A DNA stretch of 48,407 nt from a virus: the IMG/VR virus record IMGVR_UViG_3300046458_000150, positions 1-48,407 of that record; one strand, 5' to 3'. Both the position numbers and the translations under genes were made by a program. A model generated the notes under the pieces. It searched no databases. It was not told the origin of the DNA and saw only the letters and a program-made list of their open reading frames with translations. Positions 27,107 to 47,315 of this stretch are shown piece after piece (positions within the stretch are counted from its first letter, which is position 1; each line of letters starts with the position of its first letter).

Positions 27107-27130
27107 GAAAAATCCCGCACGCGGCGGGAT
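27107..27130 (-). terminator. Rho-independent terminator between decoration and capsid genes
   Basis: Minus strand: ATCCCGC-CGCGT-GCGGGAT followed by TTTTC. A terminator between two virion genes that are needed in high and equal amounts suggests antitermination of the late operon or an mRNA-processing role. Confidence 0.75.
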
Positions 27131-27151
27131 GCATATAAAAAAAGGATCGAC

Positions 27152-30322: not shown

Positions 30323-30323
30323 A

Positions 30324-32351: not shown

Positions 32352-32355
32352 AGGT

Positions 32356-32958: not shown

Positions 32959-32969
32959 GAGCTCTCCTT

Positions 32970-33110: not shown

Positions 33111-33126
33111 GCCCCAAATCGGTGCG

Positions 33127-33471: not shown

Positions 33472-33486
33472 CGCCAACCCCTAAAC

Positions 33487-33515
33487 GCAAAAACCCGGCG
33501 CAATGGCCGGGTTTG
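33487..33515 (-). terminator. Terminator upstream of the holin gene
   Basis: AAACCCGG (33490-33497) and CCGGGTTT (33507-33514) form a stem, with a T-run on the minus strand. It terminates the early-left transcript before the late genes, so late expression would need the Q-like protein. Confidence 0.75.
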
Positions 33516-33998
33516 GTGGTGTGGTGCCTGCCGCTCTCTGCGGTCGCACCTATCGAAGATGACTACTTTTTACAGGTCGATTCCGGTGGCAGCAACCCCG
33601 GTTTAATGCCACCCGGCGAATAAGTGGGTAACACCGGGTGAACGCCTAGCGAATGTCGGCGAATATCCCACCCCGGCATTCTGCTGTTTCGGCGGCGTCC
33701 CATCTGTCCCACCATTCAGAATCGAAGTGGGACGCCTGAGAGCGCCTAAATTCGGGGCTTCGCCCCACTGTCCCACTTATCTCTCTCATTTCTCGTGTAA
33801 AGGAAGAATCTTAAAGAACACGCATGCGCGTGAAACGCGCGTACTGCTGCCCACTACGCTTACACGGGCGAGAGGCAATTTGTAGCGGGACGGTGGGACA
33901 GCCCAACAAAGACAAGGCCCGCACCTGTCCCACTGCATCAAAACGCAGCGGGACAAGACGGGCCGGTGGGACAACAACAGCCGGACGAATGCCTGGGG
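33516..33998. other. Gene-free stretch with TGTCCCAC iterons
   Basis: No gene seen over 480 bp. TGTCCCAC or its complement GTGGGACA occurs exactly at 33705, 33769, 33893, 33926 and 33966, with variants GTGGGACG (33727) and GCGGGACA (33949). GGCCCG...CGGGCC (33916-33921, 33959-33964) encloses an 11-bp stem TGTCCCACTGC/GCAGCGGGACA with one mismatch. It is next to the Q-like and primase-helicase genes, so a replication origin or late-regulator binding region is the best guess. Confidence 0.6.
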
Positions 33999-34358
33999 TC
34001 ACGCAGCAATCCCCATCATCACTCCGAAGATCTGCAGGTGTGCCTCATGCAAACGCTGGTAGTACGTGTCACGGCCACAACCGCAGTGCGCGTATCGCAA
34101 GCGCATATCAACGTCGAGCGTGCAGTAATGCTCCCGCACAACCGTCACCAACTCGGGCGCCAGATGCTTGGTTACGATCAGCTCGATGTCGAGAGAACTC
34201 TCCAGCGGCGCACGAAAGGCCCGCCGCCCTCGGATCAGTTGCCCATTACTCTCCATCATCATGGCAACCATGTTCCCCCCAGCGAGCCCCCCTTTCGAAT
34301 GTTCGGAATGCAGCTCCTGCGCCCACAACCGAAGTAGCGAATCGATCTCCTTAATCAA
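33999..34358 (-). CDS. Putative late-gene regulator (antitermination Q/RinA-like)
   Basis: A 119-residue protein. The C-terminal third, VVREHYCTLDVDMRLRYAHCGCGRDTYYQRLHEAHLQIFG read in short segments, contains the sigma-4-like HTH pattern RDTYYQRLHEAH seen in phage antitermination Q and RinA-type proteins. It overlaps the primase-helicase gene by 8 bases. Position just before the terminator-guarded late operon fits a late activator. Recognition rests on one motif. Confidence 0.6.
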   Translation of the reverse strand: MIKEIDSLLRLWAQELHSEHSKGGLAGGNMVAMMMESNGQLIRGRRAFRAPLESSLDIELIVTKHLAPELVTVVREHYCTLDVDMRLRYAHCGCGRDTYYQRLHEAHLQIFGVMMGIAA

Positions 34359-36567
34359 AGCAAGGCTCCTCGAATGCTTCGCGCTTCAACGCAGAGGCGC
34401 CGCCCCACCCTGCCGGCTTCTTGTAAGCCCACGGCCGCTGACCACTCTTCACCAACGGAGGCAGCCGCACACGCCGCCACCCCAACCGATGCATGATCGC
34501 CCCGACGCGCATCTGCTCCGGCTTGCCCCAATGCCCGAAGTCCAACTTCAACGCACTGGTCAGCACGTCGCTGCCAGTGGTGGTCTCGCCGATCTGCGAT
34601 TCTTCCAGCCAGGTCAGAATCGGCCCTTCCCACTCGTCCACCACAAAGCGCTCGTCCTGCTCCTCGCCGAACATCGCAGCCTCATCCAGTGTCACCCACC
34701 AAAGGTCGCCCGCGTCGTAACAGAACAACGCCTCGGCCCACAGCTGATCGCGGATCGAACGCAACAGCTCCAGATCCACCTTGGTACACGCCACCGGCCA
34801 ATAACGGCGGTTACCGGTCGCGTCCTTCAAGTACTCGTCCTGGTTCGTCGTCCCCACGAACACACACTGACGCGGCACGTCCATCGTGCGACGGCCGTAA
34901 CTCTCACGGTAGGTATCGGTGGACGCCGAGAAAAACTGCTTGGCCTTGGTACTCTCGGCCTTGTTGAAGCTGTCCAACTCGCCCAGCTCGACGATCCACT
35001 TGCCCCGGATCGCCTGAAAGCCGTCCTTGTCGCCGAGGGCAAACGGCGTATCCATGAACCACTCGCCCCCGAGAATGCTCATTGCCGTCGACTTACCGGC
35101 GCCCTGCGCACCCTCAAGAATCATCACCGAGTCAGACTTGCAGCCCGGCTTCATTACTCGCGCCACGGCCGACAACATCCATCGCTTACCGACCTTGCTT
35201 GAGTAATCGGTGGCCTTCACGCCCATGACGTCCGCGAGCCAGCTTTCCAGGCGCGGCACGCGATCCCACTCAAGCTTGCGCAGGTACTGCCGCACCGGAT
35301 GAAACGCATGGTCATGCGCCACCACGCTCACCGCCTCGATCACATGCGACGACTTCACCCGCAGGTTGTACTGCTGCGCGAGCCACTTCATCACCCGCAC
35401 ATCATCGATGTCCGCCCAATCGCCCGTGCCGCCGCCATAAGGCGCCGCACGCAGCTTCACGATCTTCGAACTGAACGCGCTGTAACTTATCACCCCGGCC
35501 CATCGTTCATCGTTGGCTAGGATCAACTCGACGTTCTGCATGTGCGCGATCAACGCCCCGCTCTCGCTGCGAGCCAGCAAGTCTTTCCAGCCACCAGCGG
35601 CCGGCGGCTTGACCACCGCCAGCACCTGACGGCGCACGGCCTCCAAACCTTCGGCGACATGCAGGTCGTTGAAGTCGGTCCATTTGGTCTCACGCTCACC
35701 GGAAAAGATCGGCGCAACCACCTGGCCACCGACGATCAGCGCCGCATTGTTTGCCTTCTCTTCACCAGGGTTCCAGGCATCACCGTTGGGCTTCGTGGTC
35801 TTCCAGTCATCGTCCCGACAGATAATCAGCGGGCAGCCGGCGAAGCGCTCACGCATCGCCTTACACACCACCAGCAAGTTGCCGGCGTCAAACGCGATGG
35901 CCACGGTCAGCGACGTCGCCATATGCAGGCTTGCGCCGGTGGCGTAGCCCTCACACACCAGCACCGGCTCACCCGGATCCGGATGCGGACCGATCAGGTG
36001 AAAAGCGCCCTCCTTCGACATCCCATAGGGCCAATACGTCTTGTCCCGGCCGGTATGTTCTTGTTTGGTTGGGTATACCACCTGCAGGCCGACAATCTCG
36101 TCGCGCACGTTGCACATCGGCACCAGGAACGCACCTGTGCGCGGTGCATACCGAACACCGATACCAACGATCTGCTTACGATCCAAATAGTTGCTACGGC
36201 CCTTCTCCGGCATGCGCTTGAACATACCCGCCGCACGCTTGGCCGCACGACGCGCCGCACTGGCTGCGATATCCGCAGCCCGGCGCTTTGCCTCTTCCTG
36301 TCGAGCGCGCATGACCTCACGCTCTTCCGGCGACATCTGCCCGGCCTTGACCTTGATCTTCTGCGACTCACCCGAACGCCAATCACCGAATGCGCCGAAA
36401 ATCAGCGTCTCGCCCTTCTCGGTGCGATGCTCATGGGCGATGTACCAGCCATTCTTTTCCTTGCCCTTGTCCTGCGCCGTCTTGCTCCGGGTGAGCTTGC
36501 CGAACACCAATGGCTGCGCAGGCTCAAGCCCATAGTCGGCGAATTGCCCCAGAACCTCATCCAGCAT
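34351..36567 (-). CDS. Primase-helicase with VirE/VapE-type ATPase domain
   Basis: A 738-residue replication protein. N-terminal ~320 residues: a DNA-primase-like region with a TOPRIM core (EPVLVCEGYATGAS; PLIICRDDDW). C-terminal ~370 residues: VirE (PF05272) ATPase with Walker A ILEGAQGAGKST and acidic IVELGELDSF. The C-terminus (FVGTTNQDEYLKD) matches the family sensor region. It would start phage DNA replication and is the main gene of the early-left operon. Confidence 0.9.
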   Translation of the reverse strand: MLDEVLGQFADYGLEPAQPLVFGKLTRSKTAQDKGKEKNGWYIAHEHRTEKGETLIFGAFGDWRSGESQKIKVKAGQMSPEEREVMRARQEEAKRRAADIAASAARRAAKRAAGMFKRMPEKGRSNYLDRKQIVGIGVRYAPRTGAFLVPMCNVRDEIVGLQVVYPTKQEHTGRDKTYWPYGMSKEGAFHLIGPHPDPGEPVLVCEGYATGASLHMATSLTVAIAFDAGNLLVVCKAMRERFAGCPLIICRDDDWKTTKPNGDAWNPGEEKANNAALIVGGQVVAPIFSGERETKWTDFNDLHVAEGLEAVRRQVLAVVKPPAAGGWKDLLARSESGALIAHMQNVELILANDERWAGVISYSAFSSKIVKLRAAPYGGGTGDWADIDDVRVMKWLAQQYNLRVKSSHVIEAVSVVAHDHAFHPVRQYLRKLEWDRVPRLESWLADVMGVKATDYSSKVGKRWMLSAVARVMKPGCKSDSVMILEGAQGAGKSTAMSILGGEWFMDTPFALGDKDGFQAIRGKWIVELGELDSFNKAESTKAKQFFSASTDTYRESYGRRTMDVPRQCVFVGTTNQDEYLKDATGNRRYWPVACTKVDLELLRSIRDQLWAEALFCYDAGDLWWVTLDEAAMFGEEQDERFVVDEWEGPILTWLEESQIGETTTGSDVLTSALKLDFGHWGKPEQMRVGAIMHRLGWRRVRLPPLVKSGQRPWAYKKPAGWGGASALKREAFEEPCFD

Positions 36568-36784
36568 GGCGAGCCCCCTTCAGTTCGTCGGCAGAAAGGC
36601 ATCCCACGCATTGCGTACAGCCGGGCTGCGCCAAACGACGGGCCGCAGGGATCGGATCATCACACGTTTCGCAGAATAGAAACGAATGCGCCGCCAAAGC
36701 AGGCTTGGAGGCGTTGCGTGCAGCGAGCGCTTGATCGATACGCTCTTGCACCAGGTCATTAGCGAAGTCAGCGATATCAGCCAC
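36557..36784 (-). CDS. TraR/DksA-type zinc finger protein
   Basis: A 75-residue protein from GTG at 36784 (VADIADFANDLVQERIDQAL). The zinc site FCETCD ... CTQCVGC is that of the short TraR family, which binds RNA polymerase and mimics DksA/ppGpp. Overlaps CII by 8 bases and the primase gene by 11. Longer upstream readings in this frame lie inside the CII gene and are rejected. Confidence 0.85.
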   Translation of the reverse strand: MADIADFANDLVQERIDQALAARNASKPALAAHSFLFCETCDDPIPAARRLAQPGCTQCVGCLSADELKGARHAG

Positions 36785-37295
36785 GATCAACACCCCGCGT
36801 CGTCTGGTTGACATACGTGGCGCGGTTGAATAACCCCAACAACCCCTGAATTCCACGAAACACCTGCAGGCGAATTGCGGCCAGTTCCTCATCAGTGACG
36901 ACACCGTCACCAATGCTCCTGGCCCAGGTGTCCGCCAGATCTGCCACCTTGCGGAAGTACTCCGCGATACCGGTGGTCAACGTCTCGGGCATGTCATTGG
37001 TGTACGCCTCGGCCAGCTCTTGCCATGTTGTGTCACCGACCAACGCATGCACCGCATCCAGAATGCGGCGATCCTTGGTCAGCTCCAGAATCTCGCCGAA
37101 CTCTTGAATGTTCACCGTGTGGCTTGGGTGGGTTGGGGAAAGCTTGTGTTGCAGCGTGGTGGCATTCCGGCCGGTGGTGGCGGCGATGGCAGCGGCACCG
37201 CCGGGGTAGTCCCGTGCGGCATGGTAAAGCGCGAGATCGAGCGGGAGAACTTCCCGCTGCGCCCGGTCTAGAGAGCTCAGAATGATACGGCTCAT
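36777..37295 (-). CDS. CII-like phage regulatory protein (PF06892 type)
   Basis: A 172-residue protein. LDLALYHAARDYPGGAAAIAA and NATTLQHKLSPTHPSHTVN are typical of the P2/CP76 CII-type phage regulators, with a helix-turn-helix in the first 60 residues. First gene of the early-left operon, about 570 nt from promoter PL at 37.87 kb. It would influence the lysogeny decision. Confidence 0.88.
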   Translation of the reverse strand: MSRIILSSLDRAQREVLPLDLALYHAARDYPGGAAAIAATTGRNATTLQHKLSPTHPSHTVNIQEFGEILELTKDRRILDAVHALVGDTTWQELAEAYTNDMPETLTTGIAEYFRKVADLADTWARSIGDGVVTDEELAAIRLQVFRGIQGLLGLFNRATYVNQTTRGVDRG

Positions 37296-37461
37296 GGCAT
37301 TAATCCTTGTAAGTTGCCAGTGCCGCGCGGCATGCAGTGGTGATACATTTGCCGCGTGGCTTGAAAGGGCCCAAACGCCGGCTAGATCTTCGGGATCGAC
37401 ACCGGCACCGTGCCGGGGCGAGCAATCCGTTGCTCACCCCTGGCGCAACAGCTGTCCAATC

Positions 37462-37552
37462 TGTGGTGGAAAAGGCAGCAACACCAAGGCTTCCGAGCCT
37501 TGGAAAAACGCGACAAAGAGAGGAGGTTGCATGTGGTGTGCCCGCCTTCCTT
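37462..37552 (+). ncRNA. Candidate C4-like antisense RNA opposite the CII leader
   Basis: CCAAGGCT-TCCG-AGCCTTGG (37484-37503) is a perfect 8-bp stem with a stable tetraloop. It is flanked by GCAACACC and GGAGGTTGC / GGTGTGCCCGCC, which can pair with each other at longer range. A plus-strand terminator follows at 37597-37622. The transcript would be antisense to the leader of the leftward CII operon, as with phage C4 RNAs. The Rfam match is from memory and unproven. No plus-strand promoter was identified. Confidence 0.4.
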
Positions 37553-37596
37553 TATCGCGGCCCGACAGCACTGTGGTGGTGCATTTCGGGAGGAAC

Positions 37597-37622
37597 GAGG
37601 CGGCCTTAGGGTCGCCTTTTTT
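37597..37622 (+). terminator. Plus-strand terminator after the C4-like region
   Basis: AGGCGGCC-TTA-GGGTCGCCT followed by a six-T run. Its existence on the plus strand upstream of the repressor shows that something is transcribed here on that strand. Confidence 0.75.
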
Positions 37623-37745
37623 CTTAATCTTTCTTTACTGCAAACTCGGTGATTCGAAATGTGCGAGTGCCTCAGATAACGGAGCCCATCTTTTCCTAAA
37701 CAGAGCTTCGATCACAGCTACGCTGTGGATCCTTTTTTCATCTAT

Positions 37746-37784
37746 TTAGCGGCCATCCTCAGATGGCTTGCTGAAATGACGCAT
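37746..37784 (-). CDS. Possible 12-residue leader peptide of the CII operon
   Basis: MRHFSKPSEDGR, with GGAGG (37789-37793) four bases before ATG. It lies in the leader between PL (37.87 kb) and CII. No cro-like gene was found in this position. Confidence 0.25.
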   Translation of the reverse strand: MRHFSKPSEDGR

Positions 37785-37864
37785 CGTTCCTCCGAGCTCT
37801 CAAGCTCCGCTGAGTCAAGGCTAGCTATGTATTGTCAAGCCACCGTTTTCTCCTCTTGAGCACA

Positions 37865-37893
37865 AAATTAACCTGATTGGTTGTTTTTTTCAA
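37865..37893 (-). promoter_or_regulatory. Leftward early promoter PL with repressor operator O1
   Basis: Minus strand: -35 TTGAAA (37893-37888), 17-bp spacer, -10 TAATTT (37870-37865). Operator AAATTAACC-TGATT-GGTTGTTTT (37865-37887) covers it. Confidence 0.65.
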
Positions 37894-37904
37894 TACCAGA
37901 ACGG

Positions 37905-37927
37905 ACATTCACCAAAAAGGTTAATCC
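37905..37927. promoter_or_regulatory. Repressor operator O2
   Basis: ACATTCACC-AAAAA-GGTTAATCC, a degenerate copy of the AAATTAACC-N5-GGTTAATTT site, 40 bp from O1 and 15 bp before the repressor ATG. Fits autoregulation. Confidence 0.55.
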
Positions 37928-37942
37928 ATACAAAATCACTGA

Positions 37943-38590
37943 ATGAAAATCTCAGACACTCGACTCCAAAATTTCCGTAGGATCCTTACGGAAAAAAAAA
38001 TGCGTCTGACCGATGCAGCTGATCTCTTGGGTAAAGCCCCGGCTCAAGTCAGTGCATTTGGTGGGAAAAATCCATCGAAGGGAATCGGTGATCAGATTGC
38101 GAGAGAAATCGAAAAGGCGTTCGCTCTACCTACTGGCTACATGGATATGCCATACAGTGTTGGAGAATCCAGCAATGCGACAGTTATCAGCCAAACAGGT
38201 CGCAAGCTACCATTGATAGGTTCAATCGCAGCGGGTCAATGGTGTGAAGCAATTGAAAATTTTGACGCAAACAATGCTGAAGAATGGTTAGAGGCGCCTG
38301 GACCTGTCGGCGCCCATGCCTTCGTTCTCCGTATCGAAGGGATTAGTATGGAGCCTAAGTTTTCAGAAGGAGACAAAGTCGTTATTGACCCAGCATTAGA
38401 AGCCCTCCCTGGCCACTTTGTTGCCGCGCGTAGAACCAGCGACGACTTTGTCACTTTGAAACAGCTTAAACAGGAAGGAAATGAGCGATATCTTTATGCG
38501 CTTAATCCAGACTGGCCCGAACGCATCATTCGTCTCACTGAAGAGTGGAATATTTGCGGAAGGGCCAAGTGGAAAATATCTGATCTATGA
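37943..38590 (+). CDS. Prophage repressor (CI/LexA-like, S24 peptidase)
   Basis: A 215-residue repressor. HTH region about residues 21-60 (LTDAADLLGKAPAQVSAFGG). Cleavage site Ala97-Gly98 in GSIAAGQWCEA. Catalytic Ser135 (EGISMEPKF) and Lys173 (TLKQL). RecA-stimulated cleavage should make the prophage SOS-inducible. The ATG at 37943 has no Shine-Dalgarno sequence, as in some repressor genes translated from short leaders. It should bind the AACC-N5-GGTT operators at 37.87, 37.91 and 42.92 kb. Confidence 0.93.
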   Translation: MKISDTRLQNFRRILTEKKMRLTDAADLLGKAPAQVSAFGGKNPSKGIGDQIAREIEKAFALPTGYMDMPYSVGESSNATVISQTGRKLPLIGSIAAGQWCEAIENFDANNAEEWLEAPGPVGAHAFVLRIEGISMEPKFSEGDKVVIDPALEALPGHFVAARRTSDDFVTLKQLKQEGNERYLYALNPDWPERIIRLTEEWNICGRAKWKISDL

Positions 38591-38595
38591 ACAGG

Positions 38596-38615
38596 GGGCG
38601 TACTCGAATACGCCC
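38596..38615. terminator. Hairpin between repressor and AAA gene
   Basis: GGGCGTA-CTCGAA-TACGCCC between convergent genes. No T-run on either strand, so a weak terminator at best. Confidence 0.5.
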
Positions 38616-38622
38616 ACATCAA

Positions 38623-41187
38623 CTATAGTGCCTTAACCAATACGCATCTCCCCTCTTTCAGGTCTGCGGCAACCTGCTTAAATTTTTTCTCAAAAACTAA
38701 ATCTCCTGGATATTTCACAAAAACCTTTTGATTCCTTCCAATGTGTCTAAAAGGATCGCTCTCCATACTTGCAATAATTGCTGCCGCCTGTTTTCTAATA
38801 TCCGGCCATAGACCTGTAAATGGCGACTCAGAAAACACTTGTCTATCGATTATATTTTTCAAACTCACCGCGTACTCAAGAGCAGCCTCTCTACTGCCTC
38901 TTCGGCCATAAAAGGTCATTGCATAAAAATGAATGAGTGCAGACCACTCTGGATTTTTCCTTTCAATGGGAACCTCATACTTCCTCCATACCGATATTGA
39001 AAAGAGAAACTCTTGGAAAAATCCTCTATTCAAGAAATGATTCATAATAAGAATTAGACATTCAATATCATTATCTTGGATTAGATCTGAAGGACACCCA
39101 GCATACAGCTCCGTCAAAAAATTAACTTTATACAACTGCAGGTCTTGACTATTAGATGATAATGCTAACGCCCTGTACACTTTAATTTTATTAAGAGCTG
39201 AAGCTCCCTCATTCAAATAACTATCAACACATCTAATCAGAAGTGGGATACCTGTACCTTCGACCTCACTCAACTCGACGCTATCATACAAATCAACGAG
39301 TGCATCAAAAACTGTAAGCTTGCCACGATAGTATTTCACCAGTACAAATTTGATCAAACGATCAAATATGGCAAAATCTTCCACTGAACTGACTTCACAC
39401 AAAGTTAGACCAAGAACTCTTTTACTTAACCCTAGCCCCATTTCGGAAACATGAGCCAAGTCAACATCATTGGCAATCAATATATTAACAAGCTCGGAAA
39501 CAACACCAAGCTTTCCAACTTTATCTTTGAGTAACTGCGCCTTCGCCACCAGTAGATATGGCATATATTTAATTGGCGAGAACACCAAAGCTTTCTCTAG
39601 CATATCCAATGCCAGCGACTCTGCACCAACCGAAAGATACATTTTTGAAGAGTTGTAATACGCTGAAACCAAGTAGTCCAACACTGCCTCACTTGATTCC
39701 ATTTTGGAAAGAGCGGTGATCAAAGAATCGCTTAAACCAATCGCCTCATTCTTATATTCCTGCACCCCGAGCTTACTGTAGAGCAACAATAGATTAACTT
39801 TTGCGTTTGTCGCTGTTGTCCAACTTGAACCAGCTGCAGCTTCGGAAAGCCAAACGAGTGCTGCCTTGTAGTCTCGTAAATCCATATTGACTACACCCAA
39901 ATAAAACCGGACGAGCTGCAAAAATTTCTCATCATCAGTTTCTTTCAGGCAAGCTTCAAGCTCGATTACAGCATCTGACTTACGACCAATATAAAAATAA
40001 CTTAGCGCAAGCTGCAATCTATGTAATTCTGAAACAACTACTTCTTCATTCTTACTCGCGAGCGCATCTTCATAATTACGAATAGCCAATTCATAATTTC
40101 GCTGAGCATATGCTTCGGCCGCTGTCACGACTGAAGACTGGCGCGCCGAATTTACATGTTCAATCCATCGATCCGAAAGGGCCTCGTCAACCACACGATT
40201 TTTGATGGAGAGTTCACCGCCTACAGTCTTTGTAATCCCAGCAAGAAAAAGACGACTCTTAATTTTGTCTTCCGGAAATTCTGATTTATTATAGCGAATT
40301 GAAACTATTGCGCTCCTGATTTGAGAGTCGTTTTCCACCAACGTCCGAATATGATCTATTGGCGCCTTATCGAACTCTTGCAAATACAACCTGGACACAA
40401 GCGCATCTACCACATCAGAATTTAATACGGTGCCTGCTAACGCCATATCCTCTAACTCAGAACACACATCCCAAGTCATCCTCGGATTACCATCAACCCA
40501 GTAAAATATACGACCTGAAACCTCCGCAGAAAAATTCAAGCCTACCTTACGTATAAATTCGTCAAACTCATCTCGATTAAAATCTTCTAAATAAATTTTT
40601 TCGCCTATATTAAATGGAGAAATATCTTTATTTTTTATCAGGTCTGCAGGCTCAGCAACACCCGAAAGGACATAAGTCAGCCTAAGATACTCAGGAAAGT
40701 TTACCCGATTAAAATACATGCTCCTCACTTGAGCCAAAACAACATCAGAGTAGCTACAACCAACAAGCGAGTCTATTTCATCTAGAACTATTACCAAATT
40801 CTTCTTGGTGGATCTCAACAAAATCCTAAGATGTCGATCATATTCGACATTCGCTTCCAGCCCTGAGTTTTCCCTCTGATCTTTAATTTTCGGCAAATGC
40901 GGATCAAATACATCAGGGTCAAACTCAATGAGCATGTCTATGACATTACGAAACCAAAGTCGAGCGCTATCAAAGCGATTTGACAAGTCAAGATATAGCA
41001 CTAAATCGTTAACTCTCTCCCGCTTCATATGAATCAGAAGATTGGTCTTCCCCATTTGACGGGCAACGAGGACATAAGGAGGGCGCCCCATCCCATCAAT
41101 TACACTTCGCAGCTGCCTATCGGCTGCGCGCTCAATGTACTGATGAGCGGACACTATCGTGTTAGGGTTAAGCTTCTTATTAATCAC
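38623..41187 (-). CDS. AAA_35-type ATPase with TPR region, second gene of the cargo cassette
   Basis: An 854-residue protein. An N-terminal ATPase domain (about 1-330) has Walker A VLVARQMGKTNLL (Lys47, Thr48) and Walker B NLVIVLDEIDSLV (Asp136, Glu137). The ERAAD...ARQMGKT start is that of the AAA_35 / STAND-like family. Residues about 350-800 are helical repeats with TPR spacing (YAQRNYELAIRNYEDALASK is one unit). No recognisable effector or nuclease domain is present. Its start overlaps the stop of the hydrolase-NTPase gene (ATGA), so the two are translated together. Much more AT-rich than the phage genes on either side, which suggests acquired cargo. Role as a sensor-effector is inference. 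Confidence 0.75.
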   Translation of the reverse strand: MINKKLNPNTIVSAHQYIERAADRQLRSVIDGMGRPPYVLVARQMGKTNLLIHMKRERVNDLVLYLDLSNRFDSARLWFRNVIDMLIEFDPDVFDPHLPKIKDQRENSGLEANVEYDRHLRILLRSTKKNLVIVLDEIDSLVGCSYSDVVLAQVRSMYFNRVNFPEYLRLTYVLSGVAEPADLIKNKDISPFNIGEKIYLEDFNRDEFDEFIRKVGLNFSAEVSGRIFYWVDGNPRMTWDVCSELEDMALAGTVLNSDVVDALVSRLYLQEFDKAPIDHIRTLVENDSQIRSAIVSIRYNKSEFPEDKIKSRLFLAGITKTVGGELSIKNRVVDEALSDRWIEHVNSARQSSVVTAAEAYAQRNYELAIRNYEDALASKNEEVVVSELHRLQLALSYFYIGRKSDAVIELEACLKETDDEKFLQLVRFYLGVVNMDLRDYKAALVWLSEAAAGSSWTTATNAKVNLLLLYSKLGVQEYKNEAIGLSDSLITALSKMESSEAVLDYLVSAYYNSSKMYLSVGAESLALDMLEKALVFSPIKYMPYLLVAKAQLLKDKVGKLGVVSELVNILIANDVDLAHVSEMGLGLSKRVLGLTLCEVSSVEDFAIFDRLIKFVLVKYYRGKLTVFDALVDLYDSVELSEVEGTGIPLLIRCVDSYLNEGASALNKIKVYRALALSSNSQDLQLYKVNFLTELYAGCPSDLIQDNDIECLILIMNHFLNRGFFQEFLFSISVWRKYEVPIERKNPEWSALIHFYAMTFYGRRGSREAALEYAVSLKNIIDRQVFSESPFTGLWPDIRKQAAAIIASMESDPFRHIGRNQKVFVKYPGDLVFEKKFKQVAADLKEGRCVLVKAL

Positions 41188-42737
41188 TTTAACTCCTCCT
41201 CTACAGACTCAAGCAACTCGATGATATTTTTATCTGTAGAAACCTCAACTCTAGCCTTTCTAAAAAACGCCTTCACAAAGCGAGGAGATCCTTTGCTTTT
41301 ACTAATAATCACATCAAATTCATGGTCTTGAAGGGAATGACTAAGAGCTGTCGCAATCATATTTGACAGTTTCATTATTTCATCTGGCGACCACAACTGA
41401 AAATCGACAAACTGAATTTTATCATGAATTTTATTTCTATCAGGATGAACATCTTTTTTAGGGCATCTCAACGACGAAAACATCCATATCAATCGACCTT
41501 CTGCATTAGCAGTTTCTGCCAATATAATAAGCTGATATGCAATATCGATAAATCTCGTGTACTCCACTCCTGACGGGAGAGGAATTTCCTCAATTAAAAC
41601 TGCGACCGCACTTGGAGACACTAACGATGACATATATGGTCTGAGATAGCTTATCAGCGATTCAAGGCTTTCAACCTTCCCTATAGAATCGCATTCAACA
41701 CCGTTTTTTTCCAACAAAATTCGACATACTTCCCTCATCAGGGTCAGTGCGGAAGGAGCTTCAAAGCTATCCAAGGTAATATGATAAAATTTCCATTTTG
41801 AAAGCTCTACTAAACGCCTCAGCGAAGCCGTTTTACCAACCCCAGGCGGACCGCTGACCCAAACATGAGAGCTTTTTATAGCTTTAGACAAGCTCTCATC
41901 GGCACTACGGGGCAAATAGAATGGCTCAGCCACTTTCGTATAAGCATCAAACAAAACATCTCCCTCAGGAATCGCGGGGCCTGCAGCGCCCTCCAACGGA
42001 AAAAAATTTTGCACGAAGTTTTTGAGAAAAATAAACCTTAAATCCCCCGAGTCCTCGGGCTTGGTTACATTGATATGTCCGTACTCAATAAGAGTACGCA
42101 CATTATCCGCCCCTATAAATGGGGCTGCACTATCCTTTGAAACAATCGCATCCCCACCGGCAATCAAATTCAAAACCTTTATATCTTTCTCAACTTTCAA
42201 CTTGACCCAGTCAACATTTAAAGTATCTAGAAAGTCAGTTCGTTTACACAGTTGTTTTAAATGCGAATGACCGAATGAAAAAACTTTAGCAATGCTAGCC
42301 AAACCTGCCCCTGTCAAAGGAGAAGCATAGAGTAGCAAACCAAGGACTTTGTGAGTCCGCCCTTCTTTAACAGCCTCAAGAATGAAATGCCTAGATACAA
42401 TTCCACCCAAGCTGTGCGCCACAATAATTATTTCTTTTCCAGAATGCTTTGCTTCGATAAATGATTGCAAACCATTTGAAATCTCCTGCACTCCAGACAT
42501 TTTTTTCATAAAAGGAGCACGCCAAAGAGCCGTGGGATAGGCATAGCAATCATAAGCGATATGCCTTAACTCTGACGACTCACACAAAACCTTCAGCATG
42601 GTTCCCCAGGTTCCAGATGCCGACCCTGAGAGGCCATGAACAAATAGTATTACTTGATGCCCCTCACCCGTCCTGCTTGTGGGCGCATCATTTTTATCAG
42701 ACGAAAATATATTCCTTAGCTTTTTACCGATCCCCAT
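41184..42737 (-). CDS. Alpha/beta-hydrolase fused to a P-loop NTPase, first gene of the cargo cassette
   Basis: A 517-residue protein. Residues 27-245 form a PGAP1/SERAC1-like alpha/beta hydrolase: oxyanion LFVHGLSG, nucleophile Ser109 in VAHSLGG, and likely acid Asp196 (AGGDAIVS) and His221 (GHINV). Residues about 275-517 form a P-loop NTPase with Walker A SGPPGVGKTASLRR (Lys302) and an acidic VLIEEI. Hydrolase-NTPase fusions of this shape occur in STAND/NLR-like immune proteins. AGGAG is five bases before ATG. Base composition is low GC. The second gene overlaps by 4 bases. Lipase or esterase activity is inferred from motifs. Confidence 0.75.
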   Translation of the reverse strand: MGIGKKLRNIFSSDKNDAPTSRTGEGHQVILFVHGLSGSASGTWGTMLKVLCESSELRHIAYDCYAYPTALWRAPFMKKMSGVQEISNGLQSFIEAKHSGKEIIIVAHSLGGIVSRHFILEAVKEGRTHKVLGLLLYASPLTGAGLASIAKVFSFGHSHLKQLCKRTDFLDTLNVDWVKLKVEKDIKVLNLIAGGDAIVSKDSAAPFIGADNVRTLIEYGHINVTKPEDSGDLRFIFLKNFVQNFFPLEGAAGPAIPEGDVLFDAYTKVAEPFYLPRSADESLSKAIKSSHVWVSGPPGVGKTASLRRLVELSKWKFYHITLDSFEAPSALTLMREVCRILLEKNGVECDSIGKVESLESLISYLRPYMSSLVSPSAVAVLIEEIPLPSGVEYTRFIDIAYQLIILAETANAEGRLIWMFSSLRCPKKDVHPDRNKIHDKIQFVDFQLWSPDEIMKLSNMIATALSHSLQDHEFDVIISKSKGSPRFVKAFFRKARVEVSTDKNIIELLESVEEELK

Positions 42738-42911
42738 GGGCGCTCCTACATTTAAGAAGCGCCGATATACGATTTAGCATCATTTTCCATGCCATGACTA
42801 TGTTCATCCGTCAAATCAAAATGCAGCCATTACCTGCAAAATGATGCCTACAAACTGCCACTATGGCACAAACACGCAGCCTCTAAAAACAACCCATATG
42901 GTGGTTTAATC
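42738..42911. other. Leader and promoter region of the cargo cassette
   Basis: A 174-bp gap upstream of the divergent hydrolase-NTPase gene. The minus strand contains TTGACG near 42811-42816 that could be a -35, but no convincing -10 follows. No operator of the AACC-N5-GGTT type is present on the cassette side, so the cassette may be expressed in the lysogen. Confidence 0.35.
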
Positions 42912-42939
42912 TTGACAAATTAACCTTTAAGGTTAATTT
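42912..42939 (+). promoter_or_regulatory. Rightward early promoter PR with repressor operator O3
   Basis: -35 TTGACA (42912-42917), 16-bp spacer, -10 TAATTT (42934-42939). The perfect operator AAATTAACC-TTTAA-GGTTAATTT (42917-42939) covers the whole promoter. It is the strongest of three copies and is 5 kb from the repressor gene. Confidence 0.8.
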
Positions 42940-42975
42940 GGTGATCCTCAGTTCACCACAGAGAGAGGCGCCACC

Positions 42976-43152
42976 ATGCACACCACTGCCACCTTGCACG
43001 TCCACCCTGCCGCAGCTACTCCCCTCCAAATTTTTGATATTCGCCGATTGGCCCGTGAATTCGGCTGCGTTTTTGTCACCACCAAACCGAAGCTGAAGGC
43101 TCGCACTGCTACCGCCCCATTTTCCCCAAATGGCGGAGGGCACGCAGCATGA
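42976..43152 (+). CDS. Small early protein, first gene under PR
   Basis: A 58-residue basic protein from ATG at 42976 (MHTTATLHVHPAAATP) with the segment IFDIRRLAREFGCVFV and a lysine/arginine-rich C-terminal part. GAGAGAGG lies seven to ten bases before the start. It overlaps the next gene (ATGA). Common in Pseudomonas phage early operons; function unknown. Confidence 0.65.
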   Translation: MHTTATLHVHPAAATPLQIFDIRRLAREFGCVFVTTKPKLKARTATAPFSPNGGGHAA

Positions 43153-43739
43153 TCAAGTACAAAATCGACAACCGCACCCTGCAGTTGCTCAACGCCCAGG
43201 TCAACCTTAGCGAGACCTTCAACCACGTCCTCCGGACAGCGCCCAAGCTTGATTGCCTGGCGTTCCGTCTCAAGGTCGAACGCGGCACAACGGAGAGCAC
43301 CTTCGTCGTTGAACTGGGTAGCGAACGCCACACGCTGACCCTGCAGAACGACAAGAAAACGCACCTCAAGCTGGCCGACTTCATCGAAGAAATCGCCAAC
43401 GGCCCATTCGACGCAAGCAACACCAGTGACCTGGTGCAGCGCCCGCATGCCAGCCGCGGATACGGCCGCTTCGAAGTCTCGGACAAACAACGCGTTTTCG
43501 AACTGGTACGCACCGGCGGCGTGCTGAGCCTCGACATGGGCTTCGACTATCCCCTACAGGTCGCGCTGCACCGCACGCAATCGCGTTCAGGCGTCACCAC
43601 CATCCTGAGCATAGGCAACAAAAGGCCGCACACCCGCTGCTTCACCGCGTACGGGACCGATGTCGAGATCTACGGCAAGGTCACCGAGTCCATCAACCAC
43701 CTCGCTGCAGCGGCCACCCCAGCCGCGCACGCGGCATAA
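43149..43739 (+). CDS. Early phage protein of unknown function
   Basis: A 196-residue protein starting MIKYKIDNRTLQLLNAQVNL. The C-terminal half holds alternating beta segments (GGVLSLDMGFDYPLQVAL). No catalytic motif or membrane segment. Translationally coupled to the small gene before it. Confidence 0.7.
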   Translation: MIKYKIDNRTLQLLNAQVNLSETFNHVLRTAPKLDCLAFRLKVERGTTESTFVVELGSERHTLTLQNDKKTHLKLADFIEEIANGPFDASNTSDLVQRPHASRGYGRFEVSDKQRVFELVRTGGVLSLDMGFDYPLQVALHRTQSRSGVTTILSIGNKRPHTRCFTAYGTDVEIYGKVTESINHLAAAATPAAHAA

Positions 43740-43749
43740 GGAGGGCGCC

Positions 43750-44034
43750 ATGGAACGCAATCTCGCCCAAGCCGCAGCCCAGCTCGGTATCACCCGGCCA
43801 AAGCTCATCGCTCGCATGCAGGAAAAAGGCCTGCTCAACGAGAAAAACCTACCGGCTTACCCCAACCGTGACCGTGACTACCTGCGCATCAAGGACGGCC
43901 AGTGGTACCACGACCAGCTCGGCATGCAGTACTGCCAGTCGACCAAGGTGAAACAACCCGGCATCCGCTGGCTAGCCGAACAGTTGGGCATCGACCTGCC
44001 TGCCATTCCGGCAGACCACCGTGACGTGGCCTAG
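43750..44034 (+). CDS. KilAC-domain protein (stand-alone antirepressor C-terminal domain)
   Basis: A 94-residue protein. NLAQAAAQLGITRPKLIARM and RDRDYLRIKDGQWYH match the KilAC DNA-binding domain (PF03374) normally found at the C-terminus of phage antirepressors. Here only that domain is present. AAGGAGG is five bases before ATG. May modulate repressor or early promoters. Confidence 0.82.
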   Translation: MERNLAQAAAQLGITRPKLIARMQEKGLLNEKNLPAYPNRDRDYLRIKDGQWYHDQLGMQYCQSTKVKQPGIRWLAEQLGIDLPAIPADHRDVA

Positions 44035-44200
44035 GGAATACGCCCGCCAGATCATCGCCATGCGAACACGAGAGGAGCGCAACGCCGCGCTCCTCGAAGT
44101 GCCCGAACATCTGCGCGAGCTGACCAAACGGCACTGCCTGAACGCCTGGAACCACCCGGCCAGAAAACAACGCAAGGAGGCCCAACAAAGCCATGAGTAA
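44021..44200 (+). CDS. Small early protein
   Basis: A 59-residue protein from GTG at 44021 (VTWPREYARQIIAMRTREER), overlapping the KilAC gene by 14 bases and the next gene by 8. The pattern WPREYARQI with ALLEVPEHLRELTK is frequent in Pseudomonas phage early regions. Probably helical; function unknown. Confidence 0.65.
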   Translation: MTWPREYARQIIAMRTREERNAALLEVPEHLRELTKRHCLNAWNHPARKQRKEAQQSHE

Positions 44201-44510
44201 TACAGCCCAAAACCCGCTGCGCCTACAACCGGCTCCGGAGTCAGCCACCGTCGAACTGCTCTACCGCATCTTCGGCGACGTCCTGATCCCGCTGGAGAAA
44301 GTGCGCGAGCAGTACTTCCGCAACCTCAACGAGCAATCCTTCGTCGCCGAGATAAGCAGCGGCCGCATCCAGCTCCCCATCACCACGCTGGACACCAGCC
44401 GCAAGGCACCGAAGTACGCCCACATCCGCCACGTCGCCTCACTGATCGACATCCGCGCCTACAAGGCCGACGAAGACATGCAGCGACAGCAGGAAGAAAC
44501 CACCGAGTAA
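44193..44510 (+). CDS. PrtN-family activator, first copy
   Basis: A 105-residue protein. LLYRIFGDVLIPLEKVREQYF, PITTLDTSRKAPKYAHIRHV and SLIDIRAYKADED align by eye with the pyocin activator PrtN (PF11112): the L/MxxFGxxxIPLxxVCxxYF start and the QKAxxGIHLxDLAxYID end. It contains an HTH-like segment. May activate late genes in response to DNA damage. Confidence 0.78.
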   Translation: MSNTAQNPLRLQPAPESATVELLYRIFGDVLIPLEKVREQYFRNLNEQSFVAEISSGRIQLPITTLDTSRKAPKYAHIRHVASLIDIRAYKADEDMQRQQEETTE

Positions 44511-44567
44511 CACCTGAAACCGAACGGCTGCCACCACCAGCCAATGACACCACCAGGAGCACACCAC

Positions 44568-45047
44568 ATGACTGCAGTTCAGATCTGCGCACTGATAGCA
44601 ATCGCCCTTACAGCGGGCGCCCTCTACTGGATCGCCTACAGGGACGGCTTCAAAAGCGGCTGCATCGACGGCTATTCAAAGGGTTACAGCGAGGGCCATG
44701 AAGACGGGGGCATCGTCGGGTTTGAAGAAGGAATGAAGGAAGGTAAAACCAGACAGCATCATGAGAACTGGGAAGCGATGAAAAAATTGGAAGACTCTAC
44801 CTACGACGCTCGCGACCAATACAAGCAGCTTTACGCCCATTACGAGCGAGCCCTCGCTGCATCAAAACTGGGTGAACAAGAACGACTGACCCTACTGGAA
44901 ATCGCTGAGAAACTTCGGATCGCCTCTGAGACGTTCAGCGCCTTTCGCACCGGCAAAAAACTGGAATGCGACACCCGCGCCCTGCGTTATCAGGCGCTCG
45001 CCATCGCAGCGCTACTTGAGCCAGCAAATCAGGAGAGCGCCGCATGA
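44568..45047 (+). CDS. Small membrane-anchored phage protein
   Basis: A 159-residue protein with an N-terminal membrane segment (ALIAIALTAGALYWIAY, residues 7-23), a glycine-rich stretch with repeated GY/GxxEG pairs (GCIDGYSKGYSEGHEDGG), then a long coiled coil and a helical tail. The start is chosen by AGGAG eight bases before ATG. ATGA overlap with the next gene. Function unknown. Confidence 0.72.
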   Translation: MTAVQICALIAIALTAGALYWIAYRDGFKSGCIDGYSKGYSEGHEDGGIVGFEEGMKEGKTRQHHENWEAMKKLEDSTYDARDQYKQLYAHYERALAASKLGEQERLTLLEIAEKLRIASETFSAFRTGKKLECDTRALRYQALAIAALLEPANQESAA

Positions 45048-45403
45048 GCCTGACCTGCCCCCAATCCAACACCCACCGTAACCCGGCACACGCCCCACCA
45101 GCGGCTGATAAACCAACGCGCAATAGAACCTCGGAGGAAAGCGGTATGCAAAAGGACCAACAAAACACCCAATACACGACTGCTTTGCTCCGCAAGAAAA
45201 CCAGCGTCGACGCATTAGAAACAAACAGCCTCTGCTGCGCAGCAGCAGGCATTATTGCTCCTTCCAGCAGCACCACCGAGGCGCTTATATCCCACGAAAA
45301 GCTGCGCGAGGCAGCCACACCCAATGCAACGCTAACCGCTCAGAATCGCTCGCCCGCGCAGCTTGCTCAGGGGTATAAGCGTCCTTCATTGGAGGCCGCG
45401 TGA
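45044..45403 (+). CDS. Hypothetical phage protein
   Basis: A 119-residue low-complexity Ser/Thr/Ala-rich protein (MSLTCPQSNTHRNPAHAPPA). No recognised domain. Lies between two genes with 4-base overlaps (start and stop), which supports translation. Its stop overlaps the GTG of the methylase. Confidence 0.6.
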   Translation: MSLTCPQSNTHRNPAHAPPAADKPTRNRTSEESGMQKDQQNTQYTTALLRKKTSVDALETNSLCCAAAGIIAPSSSTTEALISHEKLREAATPNATLTAQNRSPAQLAQGYKRPSLEAA

Positions 45404-46155
45404 ATGAGCTGGCTCTTTTCGCAGGCGCTGGTGGCGGAATACTCGGCGGCCAGCTCCTCGGCTGGCGCACCGTCTGCGCCGTTGAGCGCGATGCCTACGC
45501 CGCACAGATTCTGGCGCAACGACAAACCGATGGATTGCTCCCGCCTTTCCCGATTTGGTCTGACGTGTGCAGTTTTGACGGACGACCATGGCGAGGACTT
45601 GTTGACGTGGTTTCGGGAGGATTTCCTTGTCAGGACATCTCGGCCGCGGGCAATGGTCTGGGCATCGCCGGCGCACGCTCTGGACTGTGGAGACAGATGG
45701 CACGAATTACCGATGAGGTACGACCGCGCTACGTCGAGTTGGAGAACTCACCGTTGCTTGTGGGAAGAGGTCTTGCCGTCGTGCTCGGTGACCTTGCCGA
45801 AATGGGGTATGACGCGCAATGGGGTGTTATCGGAGCGGCTGACTTCGCCGCTCCGCATCAGCGGAATCGAATCTGGCTCATTGCAGAGGACAGCACGCAG
45901 GCGCTGGCCAACGCCGGTGGCGAGCATGGCCAAGGGGTCCTCTCCTGCCGCATTGACTCGCCGATCCGGGGCAAACCGCACAAACGATCGCCTGGATCAT
46001 GCAGTGATGGCACTGGATGGTGGTCATCTGAACCCGGACTGGGCCGAGTGGCTGATGGGGTGGCCTATCGGCTGGACCGACTTAAAGCCATTGGCAACGG
46101 ACAGGTTCCAATCGTGGCAGCGAGCGCATTCAAGCTACTTTTCAACAGACAATAA
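45400..46155 (+). CDS. Phage C5 cytosine DNA methyltransferase
   Basis: A 251-residue methylase from GTG at 45400. Motifs in order: I (LALFAGAGGG), IV (SGGFPCQDIS with catalytic Cys), VI-like (ELENSP in place of ENV), VIII (QRNRIW) and X (LKAIGNGQVP). The target-recognition part is short, as in small phage enzymes. One Shine-Dalgarno sequence GGAGG (45391-45395) lies four bases before this GTG and eight bases before the ATG of another long frame in the same DNA. Confidence 0.9.
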   Translation: MNELALFAGAGGGILGGQLLGWRTVCAVERDAYAAQILAQRQTDGLLPPFPIWSDVCSFDGRPWRGLVDVVSGGFPCQDISAAGNGLGIAGARSGLWRQMARITDEVRPRYVELENSPLLVGRGLAVVLGDLAEMGYDAQWGVIGAADFAAPHQRNRIWLIAEDSTQALANAGGEHGQGVLSCRIDSPIRGKPHKRSPGSCSDGTGWWSSEPGLGRVADGVAYRLDRLKAIGNGQVPIVAASAFKLLFNRQ

Positions 46156-46171
46156 CCAGGAGGCCGCATGA
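45404..46171 (+). CDS. Overlapping 255-codon frame inside the cytosine methylase gene
   Basis: A second frame starts at ATG 45404, four bases after the methylase GTG, and stays open for 768 bases. It carries segments I know from separately annotated phage proteins: SVTLPKWGMTRNGVLSERL, WPTPVASM and WLMGWPIGWTDLKPLATD. Its ATG has better spacing to GGAGG than the methylase GTG. Its stop overlaps the next gene by ATGA, and AGGAGG for that gene lies inside it. It is therefore likely translated, though it could be a conserved shadow of the methylase. Function unknown. Confidence 0.5.
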   Translation: MSWLFSQALVAEYSAASSSAGAPSAPLSAMPTPHRFWRNDKPMDCSRLSRFGLTCAVLTDDHGEDLLTWFREDFLVRTSRPRAMVWASPAHALDCGDRWHELPMRYDRATSSWRTHRCLWEEVLPSCSVTLPKWGMTRNGVLSERLTSPLRISGIESGSLQRTARRRWPTPVASMAKGSSPAALTRRSGANRTNDRLDHAVMALDGGHLNPDWAEWLMGWPIGWTDLKPLATDRFQSWQRAHSSYFSTDNNQEAA

Positions 46172-46437
46172 ACACCCTTTTCCTGTTGATGGCCCAGTAC
46201 AACGGTCAGGCAGTTATTTCCCTGGATCGCGTATGCGCCGATTACATGAATCTGACCGTGGAGAAATTCAAGCATAAGCGCTTGTCGGGAGAGATCGATA
46301 TACCTGTGGTTCGCCTAGGTGCCAATAGCCAGAAAGCCGGGCTGGGCATCCACCTGAAGGATCTTGCCGACTACATTGATCGACAGCGTGAAAAGGCCAC
46401 TCGCGAGCAGAATCAATTGATGGGCAGGGTTGCCTGA
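46168..46437 (+). CDS. PrtN-family activator, second copy
   Basis: An 89-residue protein (MNTLFLLMAQYNGQAVISLDRVC) ending GIHLKDLADYIDRQREKA, close to the PrtN consensus from start to end. In P. aeruginosa, PrtN activates pyocin genes after RecA-mediated loss of PrtR. AGGAGG is four bases before ATG. It is the last gene of the early-right operon, before a strong terminator. Confidence 0.88.
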   Translation: MNTLFLLMAQYNGQAVISLDRVCADYMNLTVEKFKHKRLSGEIDIPVVRLGANSQKAGLGIHLKDLADYIDRQREKATREQNQLMGRVA

Positions 46438-46446
46438 GGAGCAAAC

Positions 46447-46478
46447 CAAAGAAGGAGAGCTCACGCTCTCCTTCTTTG
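46447..46478. terminator. Bidirectional terminator with perfect 14-bp stem
   Basis: CAAAGAAGGAGAGC and GCTCTCCTTCTTTG face each other across a 4-nt loop (TCAC). It separates the rightward early operon from the leftward PIN-like gene. Confidence 0.9.
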
Positions 46479-46487
46479 CGAAACGTC

Positions 46488-47315
46488 CTAATTGTAGAGA
46501 ACACCATCCGGTTTGAGCTTCAACCACCACTCACACAATTTTTTCTCTTTCGTGGCGAGAGCCCCTTCCAGCAGCCCCATCATCAGATACTGAGCGTCCA
46601 GAACATCGTGCCTGATGCGTTCTCTCAGCTTGGGCGTCATGACAGACGCGATACCACCAGGGTATTTAACCTTGAGATCCAGGACAAACAGCAATCCCAC
46701 CTGAAGCCATCTGAAGGTGATCCACTCATGGTCAATTCTGGCGACATTGGTTGATGAAAAAAACGGAGATTGCTTCAACAGCAACTCTGCCTTATGCCGC
46801 ACAAAATCAACATCGGTAAAAATCTTATCCTGAGCCTTCCCCTTTAGAGCGAGATAGTCCTTCTCAAGCGCTAGCTCAAATTCTGGAAACAGGATCGGAA
46901 TACTGTCGATCAGCGATAGCATCTGATCGGTATCCTCGTCGATTTCCTTCCTTTTCCTATCTAGGGCCTTGATCAGCTCCTCCGGAACCGAATAACCCGG
47001 ATTCCGATACAACGCCGTATGCGAGTGATCGATATTCCGTACATGGCTGCTGGGCAAACCGCAGGCTGCATTGCTTCGCTGTTCGTGGCGCATCAGAACG
47101 CCCGGAGTCGGAATCAATTCGAACGGTCTCGCCACATCCGGGAACTTGTAGAACCACTTTGCCCTGTCGGCATCGGTACCTTTCACCAACTCATACAGCA
47201 TAGCCTCAGTCATCAACAACCCGTGCGCTGATGCCAACTCGGTCATACTTTCCTTGGATACCGCCTGCAGATAGGACTTATCAACAACGACATTCGACTT
47301 AAAAGCGTTAGACAT
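46488..47315 (-). CDS. PIN-like nuclease candidate directly downstream of the integrase
   Basis: A 275-residue protein. The N-terminus NVVVDKSYLQAVS gives Asp12 at the end of a first strand; MTEAMLYELVKG gives Glu37. A C-terminal RHDVLDAQYLMMGLL gives Asp240 and GALATKEKK a possible fourth position (Glu257). The spacing of acids on strand 1, helix 2 and two C-terminal elements is that of PIN-like RNases (DUF4935-type). The ATG abuts the integrase stop codon with no gap, so they are co-transcribed. It lies outside the phage core modules. No antitoxin gene is adjacent. PIN assignment is by eye. Confidence 0.5.
   Translation of the reverse strand: MSNAFKSNVVVDKSYLQAVSKESMTELASAHGLLMTEAMLYELVKGTDADRAKWFYKFPDVARPFELIPTPGVLMRHEQRSNAACGLPSSHVRNIDHSHTALYRNPGYSVPEELIKALDRKRKEIDEDTDQMLSLIDSIPILFPEFELALEKDYLALKGKAQDKIFTDVDFVRHKAELLLKQSPFFSSTNVARIDHEWITFRWLQVGLLFVLDLKVKYPGGIASVMTPKLRERIRHDVLDAQYLMMGLLEGALATKEKKLCEWWLKLKPDGVLYN

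Follow-up and report, generated by a model that had tools for sequence, protein, structure and literature searches.

The IMG/VR virus record IMGVR_UViG_3300046458_000150, 48,407 bases long and treated here at its full length as the window, reads as a prophage, and it raises the question of what two coupled genes on the minus strand, A (41184–42737) and B (38623–41187), are doing beside its repressor. We consider it probable that this cassette is a split STAND/NLR-like anti-phage system carried as prophage cargo, in which B would sense the intruder and A would execute the response by abortive infection. That the cassette serves anti-phage or anti-element immunity of some form we hold to be very probable.

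A sequence-only reading of the window had described the locus as two ATGA-coupled genes, one for an alpha/beta hydrolase–NTPase fusion and one for an AAA_35-type protein with TPR repeats. Both open reading frames (ORFs) were recovered where that reading had placed them, A starting with ATG and encoding 517 amino acids and B starting with GTG and encoding 854, and Pfam and the AlphaFold models agree with both architectures. The four-base overlap holds, although its sequence is GTGA rather than ATGA. The cassette is indeed more AT-rich than its surroundings, with a GC content of ~0.39–0.43 against ~0.60 on both flanks, and it lies convergent with the CI repressor gene (37943–38590, +) and divergent from a conserved phage gene, here called G, at 43149 (+).

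The hydrolase of A spans residues ~26–245 with a putative triad of S109, D196 and H221, and its AAA/STAND-type NTPase spans residues ~262–517 with Walker A (GPPGVGKT, including K302), Walker B (LIEE) and a GSPR motif; these residues stand at the positions first reported for them. Pfam families Abhydrolase_6, PGAP1 and DUF676 score above cut-off and AAA_22 just below. In the AlphaFold model (mean pLDDT 85) S109 follows strand 102–108, D196 follows strand 187–193 and H221 follows strand 213–216, which is the canonical hydrolase order, so A is predicted to be a serine alpha/beta hydrolase by the order of its triad along the chain rather than by its geometry. The best structural matches of this domain are phospholipases and lipases, led by a phospholipase (Z 23.5, root-mean-square deviation (rmsd) 2.6, 215 residues aligned); the alignment of A structures covered loci other than L026, L027, L029 and L031, and the structure work as a whole loci other than L002. 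Ser109, His221 and Lys302 are invariant in the alignment of all 11 hydrolase-type A proteins. Sequence searches against solved structures gave no strong match for the window A (best E 0.049) and weak Cdc6/ORC matches for its NTPase. The chain ends only ~30 residues past GSPR, and A therefore has neither a winged helix nor repeats.

Gene B carries Walker A (RQMGKT, with K47), LDEID and GNPR motifs, followed by a winged-helix-like part (~255–345), a TPR array (~350–810) and a conserved tail (817–854). Pfam recognises AAA_35 (8.6e-14), with TPR matches below cut-off, and the TPR superhelix at ~350–810 is apparent from profile matches to TPR structures and from fold alignment (mean pLDDT of the AlphaFold model 86). 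Lys47, at the position predicted for it, is invariant in 26 of 26 aligned B proteins, as are the rest of RQMGKT, D136/E137, G233 and R236, while P235 is kept in at least 90% of these rows. For residues ~4–348 the fold aligns with that of 2qen, an archaeal ATPase (Z 20.9, rmsd 4.4, 311 residues), and the N-terminal part aligns to CED-4 (4m9s; Z 17.6, rmsd 5.1, 293 residues) and to two plant NLRs (Z 16.8, rmsd 4.0, 280 residues; Z 16.2, rmsd 4.7, 286 residues). The top two Foldseek matches by E-value are a STAND-TPR protein, 6mfv (2.3e-9), and terminase-bound Avs3, 8dgc (3.6e-7). With intact Walker A and B, a GxP-type motif, a winged helix and C-terminal repeats in sequence and model, B falls among the NLR-like STAND NTPases. 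The tail (window 38626–38739, −) has a pattern of its own, GRNxxVxVxY...KYKxxE, conserved across the B family; all 26 aligned proteins keep K835 and K837.

Conservation of the pair and exchange of its effectors

In every locus with a B of this family (31/31), A lies directly upstream as a separate protein; the outcome that would have refuted the sequence-only reading, homologues that never pair, did not arise. These loci belong to Pseudomonadota, Bacteroidota and Planctomycetota and include one plasmid and two prophage records. The first relative, found by tblastn, was a Sphingobium plasmid (L002) with both genes side by side at 36–38% identity. Scanning species genomes with a two-sequence B alignment gave 26 loci, all 26 with an A-matching ORF directly upstream on the same strand. 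In the 26 genome loci, plasmid L002 and viral contig L033, all 28 pairs have A and B either overlapping or separated by no more than 10 bases. Two further copies, L047 and L048, came from searches with the A NTPase and have B directly downstream; with the window these make up the 31 loci, a degree of pair conservation that rules out chance. Truncated B proteins in L008 (703 amino acids) and L020 (608 amino acids) were kept in the tree and the pair count and set apart from profiles A3 and A7.

A-side searches of 369 Gammaproteobacteria genomes gave five weak matches and two strong ones, the strong two known before; a single copy, again a known one, came from 395 genomes in the class of Aureivirga, and 200 Hymenobacter-family genomes held copies in six, five of them already known. 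Absences from these searches carry little weight because only 6–13 candidates were scored per genome. The five weak Gammaproteobacteria matches (L037–L041) were not counted, no B being present in the ~3 kb fetched around them, where a B further out is possible. Single-sequence scans of viral contigs gave no close relatives, and a hydrolase profile gave partial matches at 16 viral loci. Among plasmids, 41 records matched B; in 40 of the 41, those listed, every match except that of Sphingobium lay in the N-terminal part of B and covered no more than 43% of the protein. One of the Hymenobacter genomes (G026) carries two A–B pairs, one with a PNP effector (L032) and one with an Mrr effector (L048).

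Fusions of a related kind were also observed. Just downstream of an Mrr-type A–B pair in L017 lies a gene (10794–12557, −) for a 587-amino-acid protein in which a hydrolase of this same kind is fused directly to an AAA_35-like NTPase, and a similar fusion occurs in Nostoc edaphicum (L003, 7992–9866); they are possibly a one-chain relative or precursor of the pair. The Nostoc edaphicum plasmid, where a transposase separates the hydrolase-AAA_35 gene from an AAA_35 gene, was not counted as a member because its architecture differs.

The C-terminal NTPase is conserved in the 28 aligned A proteins, with Walker A, an EE or DE Walker B and PR..K found in these rows, while the domain fused before it varies. 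Over the 31 loci the N-terminus of A is an alpha/beta hydrolase in 11, a PNP_UDP_1 nucleosidase in eight, an Mrr-type nuclease in eight and a trypsin-like domain in three, and is missing in one (L018). Pfam matches stand behind the PNP label in L010, L016, L026 and L030, the Mrr label in L013, L017 and L020 (L017 alone above cut-off) and the trypsin label in L047. The remaining labels follow from full-length homology to Pfam-matched rows, with three proteins assigned separately: L011 is called trypsin-like from a GMSGGG motif read by eye and its metallo-beta-lactamase (MBL)-fold neighbour, L033 from its match to PDLC03855 (6.9e-7), an LmuA model shared with the trypsin part of L047, itself confirmed by Pfam, and L048 is called Mrr, with no Pfam Mrr match, from N-terminal likeness by eye to L013 and its kin. 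For L033 and L011, no protease was matched when their putative trypsin domains were searched against solved-structure sequences. In L018 the effector-less A (301 amino acids, 7099–8004) is directly preceded by a 137-amino-acid gene of unknown kind (6683–7096), which is perhaps a detached effector.

Several of these domains resemble effectors of catalogued defence systems. LmuA models of PADLOC match the window hydrolase (PDLC03851, 4.3e-9, residues 28–246), the Mrr part of L013 (1.8e-23), L033 (at the value given above) and L047 (5.5e-14). The A of L047 also matches Avs1b (4.9e-24) and HamA, PN-superfamily effector models match L010 (5.2e-20) and L026 (7.8e-16), and the NTPase part of L010 weakly matches one LmuB model (6.2e-5). 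As a separate observation, the PNP parts of L010 and L026 match a PADLOC phage-defence candidate, PDC-M60C (4.2e-18 and 2.1e-15).

The exchange of effectors is most direct in L047 (trypsin) and L048 (Mrr), whose B proteins are 70% identical over their first 493 residues and whose A NTPases are 60% identical, with identity at background level before the NTPase; on their sequences, these two show a recent effector exchange. On the B tree the five effector labels need six changes, compared with 16.9 in shuffles, and on the A tree, where a number of branches are long and only a few forks are firm, seven compared with 16.8. Exchange is thus real but not rampant.

Next to each of the three trypsin-type pairs is an MBL-fold gene, recognised by Pfam in L033, by motif in L011 and by eye in L047. 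No ORF with an MBL motif was found in the fetched flanks, some of them short, of the 26 other loci scanned, a set that excludes L048. According to PMC12799240, a trypsin-like domain on a defence enzyme together with an adjacent MBL-fold pro-nuclease is anti-phage in Hachiman and AVAST and is noted in Lamassu and DRT. The trypsin–MBL module is strong indirect evidence that the A–B chassis is an immune system.

These observations also bear on whether the pair might be regulatory, as a MalT-like STAND regulator or a lipid-signalling device whose benefit to the lysogen has nothing to do with phages. STAND-TPR proteins do include regulators, and AAA_35 proteins are common in cyanobacterial plasmids, where they are annotated without a role. 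However, neither A nor B has a Pfam DNA-binding domain reaching cut-off, the effectors are of types common to defence systems, the trypsin and MBL module recurs, and the slot in which the cassette sits holds defence-type genes in relatives (see below). We regard a signalling role as improbable.

The two proteins are further tied by their NTPases. Aligned as profiles, the A NTPase and the B AAA_35 domain match with an hhalign probability of 98.2 (E 3.5e-14), GSPR falling on GNPR, and of 27 records searched 14 have a B frame that the A model also picks up at E ≤ 1e-3. Across the 31 loci the pairwise identity matrices of the two proteins correlate with r = 0.90, a value reached in none of 2000 free permutations (highest 0.30) and in none of 2000 permutations within effector classes (highest 0.78). 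Judged from these profiles and identities, the two NTPases are homologous and co-inherited. Because A has neither winged helix nor repeats and B has no effector, while each keeps a nucleotide switch, the pair looks like one NLR split in two.

Two coupled genes, inherited together this closely and including a potentially toxic enzyme, are also what a toxin–antitoxin-like arrangement would present. There A would be constitutively dangerous and held inactive by B, and host shut-off by a phage or degradation of B would free it; the outcome would still be abortive infection, with B an inhibitor rather than a ligand-gated sensor. Yet the size of B, the intact and invariant Walker motifs of its NTPase and its TPR array go beyond the needs of an inhibitor, and its fold likeness at the level of domains is to ligand-gated STAND proteins. 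Such an arrangement is in our judgement unlikely, and we favour B as the sensor of the split system.

The cargo slot beside the repressor

The cassette occupies an interval of the prophage immunity region bordered on the left by the CI-type repressor with its S24 peptidase domain and on the right by gene G (43149–43739, +; phrog_15582, of unknown function). A CII-like regulator (Phage_CP76; 36777–37295, −) served as the marker of this region for comparison with 98 viral loci (L067–L164), namely the best 80 of 211 relatives of gene G together with 18 relatives of CI. None of the 98 contains A or B. Seven without gene G or CII were set aside, leaving 91, in which near-identical contigs were counted separately. 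The distance from CII to G ranges from 1576 to 5344 bases in these 91 loci and is 5854 in the window.

In 37 of the 91 loci (1576–1702 bases) the slot is empty: cargo ORFs of 190 or more amino acids are absent, and there is a single repressor-sized plus-strand ORF, which was called a repressor from its position wherever a match to the window CI was lacking. It is filled in the other 54, with 66 cargo ORFs of at least 190 amino acids in 49 clusters. Cargo runs on the minus strand in 43 of the 49 cluster representatives, as does the cassette, and the GC content of the interval is 0.43–0.50 with cargo compared with 0.51–0.53 when empty. Among the best 25 of 374 PADLOC families matched by the 49 representatives are LmuB (three members), PtuA (up to three), ATPase_I-A (two) and RT-Protease_XI (two), the LmuB, PtuA and ATPase_I-A matches probably overlapping on the same proteins. 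The best 25 of 34 Pfam matches include a C5 methylase, ABC-3C CTD6, Cap15, SIR2_2, NACHT, SNaCT13, GmrSD_N, putAbiC and HEPN, each in one member. Since the slot is variably filled and its contents match defence families, the cassette sits in a cargo hotspot holding defence-type genes, and in relatives the same place is either empty or otherwise filled.

The sequence-only reading had proposed looking for the pair at the same place in other prophages. This check favours the reading: apart from the defence-type genes in the slot of related viral loci, a second viral record, L033, has the pair between CI and integrase, in the order CII, CI, MBL gene, A, B, integrase, and so is another prophage with the pair in the same kind of place and with another effector.

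Adjacency to CI in two prophage records, and a slot that is itself part of the immunity region, would also fit a module directed at lysogeny, in which the pair controls or aborts induction of its own or a sibling prophage rather than foreign infection. Related viral loci lack the pair, however, and the other 29 copies come from genome and plasmid contigs, the latter a weak point because their flanking ORFs were read by eye and not searched for phage genes. We think such a self-directed role very improbable and return below to immunity against invaders. Whatever the role of the cassette, the interval between CII and G (window 37295–43149) offers a dense and easily searched source of candidate defence genes, with 49 clusters in 54 loci.

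Proposed mechanism and relation to known systems

We propose that the TPR array of B holds its NTPase off until a trigger arrives, probably a protein of the invading phage, as for Avs. Triggered B would switch nucleotide state and oligomerise, and the oligomer would nucleate or recruit A by way of the homologous NTPase that A carries. Once clustered, A would have its N-terminal hydrolase switched on; in the window this may be a lipase or esterase that attacks membrane lipid or some other essential ester, and the attack would stop the infected cell and so abort the infection. In relatives the effector driven by the same chassis would instead be a nucleosidase, an Mrr nuclease or, together with its MBL-fold partner, a trypsin-like protease. 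The pair would have to spare induction of its own prophage; this phage may lack the trigger, or the cassette may be turned off.

Several points weigh against this reading of the cassette. The choice of B as sensor and the order from B to A are read from architecture. Asp196, unlike the other residues named by the sequence-only reading, aligns in only four of the 11 hydrolase types (the window, L002, L007 and L008; by eye), the A ORF of L012 is missing the start of its hydrolase domain, and the hydrolase-type A of L015 matches no PADLOC model at 1e-3. The likeness of B to 6mfv and Avs3 is one of domains and not of whole-chain arrangement, because over the whole chain the TM-scores reach only 0.26 of the query (rmsd ~28), and TPR repeats generally give high structural scores. 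The scan behind the 26 genome loci required conserved B peptides, so that B relatives without A could have escaped it, and partner genes were looked at in two of the 41 plasmid records. The pair is rare, A-side searches having added two copies from 964 genomes. As tblastn found no A or B in 50,697 phage records, and a 26-row B profile found B in only one more viral contig (L033), prophages are not the main home of the pair. Finally, the layout fits the earlier claim that the cassette is transcribed alone, but a consensus scan, which performed at chance level overall (12 sites found compared with 10.2 expected), found no sigma-70-like site in the presumed promoter region (42738–43148, −) that A shares divergently with the gene at 43149.

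A more specific form of the proposal, which we hold to be about evenly balanced, is that of a bacterial sensor/helper NLR pair. Sensor STAND B would template a mixed oligomer with helper STAND A, and across Pseudomonadota, Bacteroidota and Planctomycetota effectors, whether lipase, nucleosidase, nuclease or protease plus pro-nuclease, would be swapped at a fixed fusion point before the A NTPase while the sensor chassis is kept. In plant paired sensor/helper NLRs two nucleotide-binding proteins act as a pair. The nucleotide-binding and winged-helix region of B does align to plant NLR structures, but the comparison is an analogy only, for A has no sensor, B has no effector and both genes lie in one unit.

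Among the closest parallels is AVAST (Avs), which has the same exchangeable N-terminal effector, STAND NTPase and C-terminal TPR-like sensor, and whose Avs3 ranks second by E-value, at low whole-chain TM-score, among the Foldseek matches of B. Avs types other than Avs5 hold effector, STAND and sensor in one chain. Avs5 likewise does so (PMC12931631), and the Avs trigger is a phage protein (PMC11249213, PMC12931631). The trypsin-type relatives share the trypsin and MBL module with Avs1 (PMC12799240). In contrast, in all 31 loci here effector and sensor are separate proteins rather than parts of one polypeptide, each of the two having an NTPase, and PADLOC matches none of four B proteins (the window B at E up to 10; those of L013, L026 and L033 at E up to 1e-3), with only the trypsin-type A of L047 matching Avs1b. 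In its mode of action the cassette may resemble AVAST and further NLR-like proteins of bacteria; with two chains and a B that PADLOC does not match, it is by these comparisons not a member.

With Lamassu/ABC-3C the cassette shares the LmuA models that match hydrolase, Mrr and trypsin N-termini (the window, L013, L033 and L047), and LmuA effectors vary in like manner (PMC10586767). The window pair differs in that its neighbours are CI and gene G, with no adjacent LmuB-type SMC/Rad50 ATPase or LmuC, and in that the partner of A is a TPR-STAND protein. By sequence, the cassette would thus draw its effectors from the LmuA pool without LmuB. Single-chain STAND-TPR proteins of P4-like satellites, with a TIR, SIR2 or Mrr effector, also combine STAND, C-terminal repeats and swapped effectors as mobile-element cargo, but as one protein, without a second NTPase and on another element (PMC9122126). 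The nuclease–protease module of Hachiman, AVAST, Lamassu and DRT has the same trypsin-like domain on a defence-type NTPase and the same MBL-fold neighbour as the three trypsin-type loci here (3/3), whereas the window copy has neither part, and the four systems that the passages of PMC12799240 name, apart from the further loci of its fig. S2C, do not include the A–B pair.

No description of the A–B pair was found in the literature, a search whose scope excluded preprints and most subscription journals and included the 2023 PADLOC models, nor in the available parts of PMC13092281 and PMC7159879. This accords with the initial view that the pair is not a named defence system, and with no NCBIfam match at cut-off (the best, RuvB at 5.9e-5, being far below it) a known housekeeping family was not indicated either. 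The sequence evidence supports an NLR-like, prophage-borne, defence-type cassette as first suggested; beyond that suggestion, sequences and models indicate that the effector is exchangeable, that both proteins have homologous NTPases and that the putative sensor half is built like a STAND/NLR protein.

If this proposal is right, a split form of NLR-like immunity would be added to those of bacteria, with a simple two-protein model for how a nucleotide-binding protein can activate a second one, a problem addressed mainly in plants. The natural effector exchange between L047 and L048 would provide ready chimeras for asking whether activation is independent of the effector.

The remainder of the record

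Other prophage genes in the window include those for a minor tail protein, tail fibre, major capsid E, portal and gpA terminase, together with the CII-like regulator, the S24 CI repressor, a PrtN/excisionase-like gene and an integrase. Positions 20000–38600 match four phage records, all from Pseudomonas, at no more than 9% coverage, and positions 36000–48407 match five records, at least three of them from other hosts, at no more than 3% coverage and at positions in the methyltransferase region. From these matches we provisionally call the prophage Pseudomonas-type.

Two long plus-strand frames overlap at 45400–46155 and 45404–46171. By eye the first has a C5 methylase-like start, and the second belongs by its match to phrog_1008 (8.3e-22) with the DNA methyltransferases, so that a frameshift or overlapping genes are possible. 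At 7140–8835 (−) a UmuC-like polymerase (IMS, IMS_C and DUF4113) is coupled to a small gene at 8410–8835, which from its position may be UmuD. The first 10 kb of the record has a GC content below that of the phage genes and may be host DNA or further cargo.

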